Origin: Anaerolineae bacterium
Lineage (GTDB): Bacteria > Chloroflexota > Anaerolineae > UBA4142 > SHND01
Length of the DNA: 37,626 bases
Reading direction: 5' to 3'
NCBI GenBank assembly: GCA_020851635.1
Contig: JADZCJ010000027.1
Location: 1 to 37,626 of the forward strand
Within the stretch, counting starts at the first letter, position 1, and every line of letters begins with the position of its first letter. Made by a program: the position numbers and the translations under genes. Below are positions 27,880 to 29,879 of the stretch, one piece after another. The notes beneath the pieces were generated by a model. The model did not search any database, was not told the origin of the DNA, and worked only from the letters and a program-made list of their open reading frames with translations.

Positions 27880-27924
27880 AAACAAAAAGGCGGCGTCGAA
27901 ATTTCGACGCCGCGCTTTTTGTTT
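27880..27924. terminator. Bidirectional terminator between pepA and the chagasin gene
   Basis: Bases 27890-27900 pair with 27903-27913 (11 GC-rich pairs), extended by 27880-27889 with 27915-27924 (10 A/T-rich pairs) across a one-base bulge. The A/T arms give a T-run on each strand, right for two converging genes. Confidence 0.88.
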
Positions 27925-27932
27925 CGAGGTTT

Positions 27933-28968
27933 TTATTCGACCGTCACATCAGCCGTCCAGGTATTTTGTGGGGTGGGTTTTGTGCCCCTTTCCCAGGGAC
28001 GCGAATACAATAGGGTCAACGTGGTCGTGCCTGCGCCCACGGCACGGAACGTAAAGGTCTCGGTTCCGCCTGCACCAGGCATGGGGGTCTTGGAGCCCAA
28101 ATCGAACTGCGGCTCACCGACTTGCTCCAACACCGCTGCATTGTCCGAAATCACTTGCCACGAATAGCCGGTGGAGGGGTTGCTGGCGAGCTGCACGGTC
28201 ATCGTGTCGCCCGCTTTAAGGGAGACAGGCTTGCCATTGTCTTGTTCCGTCAAGGTTTGGTCCACAATGCTTGGTGATGGTTTATTCGAGCTGCCGGTAA
28301 AAACGTTTGGTAGAGAGGTCGGCTGGTAGCGCACAACCTTGCTCAGATCGGTGCCGCGCACGACGCCATTCGCTTTATAAGTCAGCCCCCAGGAATCAAT
28401 GGCTGACATGTCAGCAAAAACGCACATGCCAACGACCTGGAAATTGGTCGCGCTGTCGGGCGCTTCCGTGACCCAGCCGCCGCCTGCGGCATTGGCTGCT
28501 CCACCAAACAGGTCCGTCCCGCCCAGCTTGGAACAATACAAAGAGGAGGGGTTTGCGCCTGTGAATGGCGGCAGGGCAACCGGTTCGAGATAGGCGAGCA
28601 CAGCCAGGGTCGGCTCGTCTGCATAAAGAGTATCCAGCGCAATCGAAATTTGCGATTGGAACCCGGTCGCATCGGCTTCCGAATGGAACGTGCAAAAATC
28701 GCGCGACCCGGCGAGCCGCAGCCAGCGGTCCTGCGGCGCATTCGTTTTGTAGGTCGGATAGCGCGTCGTCACGGTGCCGCCCTGTGCCTCACAATAAGCC
28801 GCAGCGGCCGCAGCCTCGTCCATCTCTTGCGGTTCGGTTGTGGCAACGAGGGTGGCTGTGGCTTGTGCGTTGGGTCGCGCCTGGACGGCATTCGTGCTAA
28901 ACAGCAGGGTTGCCAGGATGGCAAGCACTGCAAAAAAAAAACAAACCGATTTGGATTTTTCTGTGCAT
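27933..28968 (-). CDS. Secreted chagasin-type (I42) protease inhibitor with DUF333-like repeats, frame-split at a poly-T tract
   Basis: The C-terminal domain (last 100 or so residues) is a chagasin/I42 inhibitor of papain-type cysteine proteases: NPSTGYSW, GAGGTETF and YSRPWE match the family's three loops. Before it come two DUF333-like segments (YCEAQGGTV and YCSKLGGTD, then CVFADMSAIDSWGL). The frame opens at 28928 with GTG and only a truncated signal (LAILATLLFSTNAVQA). An ATG at 28968, preceded by AAGGAGAG, begins a proper signal (MHRKIQIGLFFF), but it is out of phase: ten T at 28941-28932 would have to be read as nine. As it stands that frame stops after 23 codons. Sequencing error, transcript slippage or a phase-variable switch are all possible. 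The coordinates include the split N-terminus. Confidence 0.8.
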
Positions 28969-29033
28969 CCGATTCTCTCCTTGATTCTAAAACGATTCGG
29001 CGCCGGATTCCGTTTGATTCGCGTACGAGGGGT

Positions 29034-29879
29034 TTACTGCGCGGGAGGCTCTATGACGGGGAGCGCGTTCAGGTCTGCCTCTGTCGTAATGTACTCGGCG
29101 GCAACCCAACCCTGTTTGCCGATGGATGGCACATTGACGCGCAGCCACACACTGTCGCTCAGCCGTCCGACAATGACGACCTGGGTGTCCAGCTGCAAGC
29201 GGTCAACGATTTCAAAAGTGGTGCCGGGTCCCTGACGCAGGTTGAGGATCTGCGTGTTGACCTTGCCTGTCGCTTGCTGAATGAGCGGCGCGGTGGTGGG
29301 CGCGTTTGCGGGCGCGGGCGTGCCCTGTTCCTGGAGGACCGGCGTCTCTTGTGCCAGCGCGCTCGGCGTTGACGTTCGGGCGGGGGGTCCTGCCAAGAAA
29401 AGAGGATTTCGCAGAACAAACATGATGACCAGCCCGACGATCACCGCCAGTCCGATGCCCAGACAGCCGATGACAGATGGGGATACGAACCCGTCCGGCA
29501 AGAATGAGAGGGGGGTGCGCGGAGCTTTGGTTTCGGGGACCTCGCGGGCGCGTTGATCAAAATCAAAACGGCTCGGGAGCGGGTCTTGCGCCTTTTTTTC
29601 AAAATCAATCAACAGCGGTCCTGCGCTGCCGTTATAGAGGTGAATCCCGTGCCAGTCCTGCACAGCGCCATCCGCGCCAATCGAGCCGACCTGCCGCCCA
29701 TAACGGTCAATCACGTCGCCGCGCGCATTGATGCTGCCGACCTGTTCGCGCTGGGCATTATAGACTGACCCGTCGCGGAAAATCTGCCCGACCTTTTTGT
29801 TGTTTCTGTCCCGCAAGGTGCCATCGCTTTCCTGATAACCGACGATGATGCCATGCGGGTCACGAATGGGGGTGCTCAT
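29034..29879 (-). CDS. Membrane protein with N-terminal G-x-x-V-G-x-I repeats and an SH3-type domain
   Basis: 281 residues. The N-terminal 80 or so are short beta repeats of the form DGxVxDxxGxxVGxI (DGTLRDRNNKKVGQI, DGSVYNAQREQVGSI, ARGDVIDRYGRQVGSI, DGAVQDWHG), like the four-fold 'beta flower' proteins. A linker, one membrane segment (about 133-156), a Pro/Ala/Thr-rich stretch and a bacterial SH3 domain (about 206-266; LNLRQGPGTTFEIVDRL, WLRVNVP, GWVAAEYI) follow. SH3b domains usually bind wall peptides, so the C-terminus is probably outside and the repeats inside. No enzyme motif is seen and the role is unknown. An extended -10 box ends about 10 bases before the ATG, so the message is probably leaderless. 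Confidence 0.72.
   Translation of the reverse strand: MSTPIRDPHGIIVGYQESDGTLRDRNNKKVGQIFRDGSVYNAQREQVGSINARGDVIDRYGRQVGSIGADGAVQDWHGIHLYNGSAGPLLIDFEKKAQDPLPSRFDFDQRAREVPETKAPRTPLSFLPDGFVSPSVIGCLGIGLAVIVGLVIMFVLRNPLFLAGPPARTSTPSALAQETPVLQEQGTPAPANAPTTAPLIQQATGKVNTQILNLRQGPGTTFEIVDRLQLDTQVVIVGRLSDSVWLRVNVPSIGKQGWVAAEYITTEADLNALPVIEPPAQ

Follow-up and report, generated by a model that had tools for sequence, protein, structure and literature searches.

A signal peptide split by a ten-base T tract in a chagasin-family inhibitor gene of an uncultured Anaerolineae bacterium, very probably a sporadic one-base change

In the genome of an uncultured bacterium of the Anaerolineae (Chloroflexota; 5.8 Mb), a gene predicted to encode a secreted inhibitor of the chagasin family is interrupted, within its signal peptide, by a run of ten T residues (T10). 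We consider it very probable that this interruption is a lone change of one base in the length of the run, in an unremarkable gene for a secreted I42 protein, present either as a real allele or as an assembly error, and not an evolved switch. A stray mutation or assembly error is preferred over a built-in switch because the T run is found in none of the five related species (0/5) and no other run that was checked breaks a gene.

The interrupted frame and its product

The gene lies on the minus strand of the window, by which we mean the whole stretch of 37,626 nucleotides that was analysed (Table 1). A Shine–Dalgarno (SD) sequence, read directly, stands ahead of an ATG at 28968-28966, with a spacing of 8 bases between AAGGAG and the ATG. 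The frame MHRKIQIGLFFF enters T10 and loses phase afterwards, and translation from the ATG as assembled gives MHRKIQIGLFFFCSACHPGNPAV before a TAG stop (28899-28897); codons 1-12 encode the n-region of a signal peptide and the beginning of its hydrophobic core. The frame of the mature protein is open from 29033, its first listed start being a GTG (28928-28926). One T fewer (nine) would fuse the ATG frame with the mature frame and, as in a contingency locus, a change of one unit in the tract turns the frame on or off. The first-pass annotation had described an ATG with a strong SD and a signal peptide, split by T10 from the mature frame, with a stop after 23 codons; direct reading of the sequence confirmed this layout.

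Table 1. Positions of features at the inhibitor locus, numbered along the window
Feature	Position	Strand	Basis
Shine–Dalgarno AAGGAGAG	28975..28982	-	Sequence; SD also before the equivalent ATG in 5/5 orthologs
ATG frame as assembled, 23 codons + TAG	28897..28968	-	Sequence; phase differs from that of the downstream frame
T10 homopolymer breaking the phase	28932..28941	-	Sequence; absent from five orthologs
Mature-protein open frame from GTG 28928, 331 aa, including the remainder of the signal peptide	27933..28928	-	Sequence; ortholog identity 64-74%
DUF333 domain, residues 125-182	28383..28556	-	Pfam PF03891, 38.9 bits (cut-off 25)
Chagasin-family inhibitor I42 domain, residues 237-318	27975..28220	-	Pfam PF09394, 88 bits (cut-off 27.2)
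Terminator-like hairpin between the inhibitor gene and the convergent M17 aminopeptidase gene	27890..27913		Consensus scan only

The predicted product is a genuine chagasin-family (I42) secreted cysteine-protease inhibitor with two DUF333-like stretches, of which the second gives the weaker match. Its I42 domain scores far above the Pfam cut-off. The inhibitory loops of chagasin, namely L2 (NPTTG), L4 (GxGG) and L6 (RPW/F) (PMC2607524), are found in the protein as NPSTG, GAGG and RPW and are kept in the alignment of orthologs, and the nearest solved structures are cysteine peptidase inhibitors, for example 2wgn and chagasin itself (2nnr). The Pfam match and the chagasin relatives in the PDB bear out the earlier identification of a chagasin-type secreted inhibitor. 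A search for papain-family peptidases (PF00112, Peptidase_C1) gave no match in any of the six genomes of the genus and was positive in three control genomes, which makes a foreign target, or one from another peptidase family, probable for the inhibitor. All six genomes (G000-G005) encode a DUF333-I42 inhibitor alongside this lack of a Peptidase_C1 match. The genome of the window encodes another copy, 67% identical (G000:C140:236519-237478; L039:1017-2366, minus strand), in which an in-phase signal peptide of its own and a CopC domain precede the DUF333-I42 portion, and in one congeneric genome (G001:C126:39691-41016) a single open frame of 510 residues contains four tandem I42 matches.

The adjacent upstream gene on the same strand (window 29034-29879) encodes a bacterial SH3 domain with a weak beta-flower match. 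A conserved operon context was considered and rejected, as this SH3 gene had no match in the five related loci and as the M17 and GAF/kinase genes occur near the ortholog at one locus only (L124), the other loci having shorter flanks or other neighbours.

Congeneric orthologs and the homopolymers of the genome

The ortholog comparison covered five other genomes of the genus, all Chloroflexota / Anaerolineae MAGs with one genome per species. An ortholog is present in each of the five (identity about 63-74%), and each has the SD and the ATG at the matching place, followed by a signal peptide whose phase agrees with that of the mature protein; for this reason the break in the window is not a chance juxtaposition. 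At the position corresponding to T10, a T run is absent from all five. Counted up to the mature N-terminus, the signal peptide has 33-34 residues in the orthologs and, if nine T are read, 34 in the window, and with nine T the hydrophobic core and the positively charged n-region also match theirs. The residues ahead of the tract (MHRKIQI) resemble those of the closest orthologs (MDRKFQI and MKRKLQL). Because the orthologs keep the SD, the ATG and an in-phase signal peptide of matching length, we judge the ATG frame to be ancestral and the assembled tract to exceed the working phase by one base. The ortholog signal peptides in this way support, as the ancestral phase, the one that nine T had been proposed to restore. 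Outside the tract the gene is undamaged and evolves under purifying selection, with dN/dS values of 0.10-0.17 where dS is unsaturated, which are rough since dS is high; this fits a recent event or an artefact, and disfavours an old pseudogene.

All 56 A/T runs of at least 9 bases in the genome were surveyed together with a large sample of about 35 G/C runs of at least 9, coding status being assigned from open frames and a purpose-made codon-usage score, not from annotation. Eight A/T runs reach at least 10 bases, and T10 of the window is the only one of these found inside a gene. When the window was shuffled 100 times with its dinucleotides preserved, a T10 or A10 appeared in 23 of the shuffled sequences; the tract by itself is not improbable and lies within chance for the composition. 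Among the 56 A/T and about 35 G/C runs, we found no other gene broken at a long run and no other out-of-phase tract close to a clear SD and ATG. Long frames run without interruption across several A/T9 tracts and across about nineteen G/C tracts of 9-11 bases, and the intact state of the latter indicates that the assembly is generally sound. Systematic frameshift errors in the assembly found no support, as the junctions at L065, L102, L127 and L152 proved to be gene ends, gene starts or intact read-through; the candidate junction at L152 is what we take, by eye, to be the start of a MurG-like gene. At the very start of one contig (G000:C77:1-42) there is a run of 42 C residues, probably a two-colour Illumina poly-G artefact, which suggests short reads with few indels.

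Origin of the extra base and rival readings

A sporadic change would have arisen in an otherwise unremarkable gene for a secreted inhibitor, composed of a signal peptide, a DUF333-like region and an I42 domain, with ATG 28968 as its start and with a hydrophobic core partly encoded, by chance, by the T run (Leu-Phe-Phe-Phe); a one-base length change in that run would then end translation from the ATG after 23 codons. The extra T may be spurious, added in the assembled consensus, an origin that we regard as quite possible, if somewhat short of an even chance. Illumina data are known to yield spurious homopolymer indels (PMC8808543; PMC11140927), and with some dozens of long tracts in coding sequence a single miscall would be no surprise; this half of the reading is weakened by the other long tracts, including in-gene G/C tracts of 10-11 bases, that were assembled in phase. 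Alternatively, the extra T may be a real allele produced by replication slippage, recent or in a mixed population, and this we hold to be just as plausible, giving the artefact and the real indel about equal weight. Mutation by slippage is fast at tracts of this kind: for an A-tract in Listeria inlA, variation is about 1,000 times as frequent as point mutation is on average (PMC2831843).

If T10 is real, deletion slippage by RNA polymerase on U10 may restore the phase in a minority of transcripts, so that expression of the inhibitor would be lowered and not lost. The RNA polymerase of Escherichia coli slips on T runs of at least 7, its preferred substrate, where, unlike on A runs, deletions occur too, at about 10% for T8 and increasingly with length (PMC6260861). 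Given such deletions, a T10 allele would probably leak in-phase mRNA. Leaky expression of this kind would be a passive consequence of T10 and would not in itself point to control. Ribosomal -1 slippage on the U run was rejected as a route to the product, since by arithmetic it leads into the third frame; the mature frame requires a net loss of one base, or +1.

Genes that are switched by tract length are usually of the surface-antigen kind, and a contingency locus usually keeps its tract in relatives, a supporting feature and not a strict requirement, and often has companions. The first-pass annotation had seen in the layout a phase-variable or slippage-controlled secreted protein, had named a sequencing error in the homopolymer as the duller possibility, and had pointed to tract length in related strains as a check. 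Evolved phase variation, in which replication slippage in the T tract would turn secretion on at nine T and off at ten or eleven T within a population, fits a tract that is close to the 5' end and leads to an early stop when out of phase, and A/T tracts are enriched towards gene 5' ends and have a high mutation rate (PMC2831843). The claim was nevertheless not upheld, as the five congeneric species examined (one genome each) have no T run in the ortholog, the surveyed runs of the genome include no further frame-breaking tract, and the gene, which bears no other sign of switching, is unlike the surface-antigen kind; we consider such a switch decidedly unlikely. A literature search found no papers devoted to phase variation in Chloroflexi.

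Two further readings are, in our estimation, more improbable still. Programmed transcriptional slippage would leave the DNA fixed at ten T and use slippage on U10 to set a low, constant level of secreted inhibitor, in the manner of mxiE or dnaX, both of which are functional cases (PMC1088944), and the preference of E. coli RNA polymerase for T runs, with its deletion rate at T8, lends this a mechanism (PMC6260861). The slippery run between two frames is, however, not conserved, the orthologs being encoded in one frame without it, and slippage would follow passively from any T10 allele; we think this very improbable. It is likewise highly unlikely that the true start is the GTG at 28928, with a short signal peptide and with the upstream ATG and SD irrelevant. 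This GTG is the first start codon of the mature frame as assembled, but it lacks an SD, the place of which is occupied by the poly-T, and a signal peptide begun there would lack positive charge and be weaker in its hydrophobic core (the best 12-residue mean is 2.15; the phased form reaches 3.02 and the orthologs 2.35-3.11). In all five orthologs, the position that corresponds to 28968 is an ATG with an SD ahead of it. A further proposal, that a species-specific T10 makes secretion of the inhibitor dependent on slippage at the DNA or RNA level and so gives producers and non-producers in a population of this uncultured Chloroflexota bacterium, also seems unlikely.

Likeness to known systems and meaning

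With the chagasin or ICP family (MEROPS I42, PF09394) the protein shares the I42 domain, the three inhibitory loops (NPSTG/GAGG/RPW) and a secreted form, but here the domain is fused behind DUF333-like domains in a putative inhibitor known from sequence, and no papain-family peptidase was found in the inhibitor's own genus. In Listeria inlA an A/T tract close to the 5' end likewise makes translation lose its frame a few codons in (PMC2831843); there the frameshift recurs among strains and has been measured, whereas here it is seen in a single genome whose relatives are without the tract. Thermus dnaX (A9) and Shigella mxiE (a U run) resemble the present locus in having two overlapping frames that meet at a slippage-prone homopolymer (PMC1088944), and differ from it in that the orthologs here have a single frame and no tract; slippage in the present case is a prediction from the DNA sequence.

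The locus is a caution that a textbook-like phase-variation layout in a draft genome can come down, after comparison with relatives, to one isolated change of a single base that is not conserved. Should the length of the tract prove variable within the population, this would offer a first indication that bacteria of this group control the secretion of a protease inhibitor through a homopolymer.
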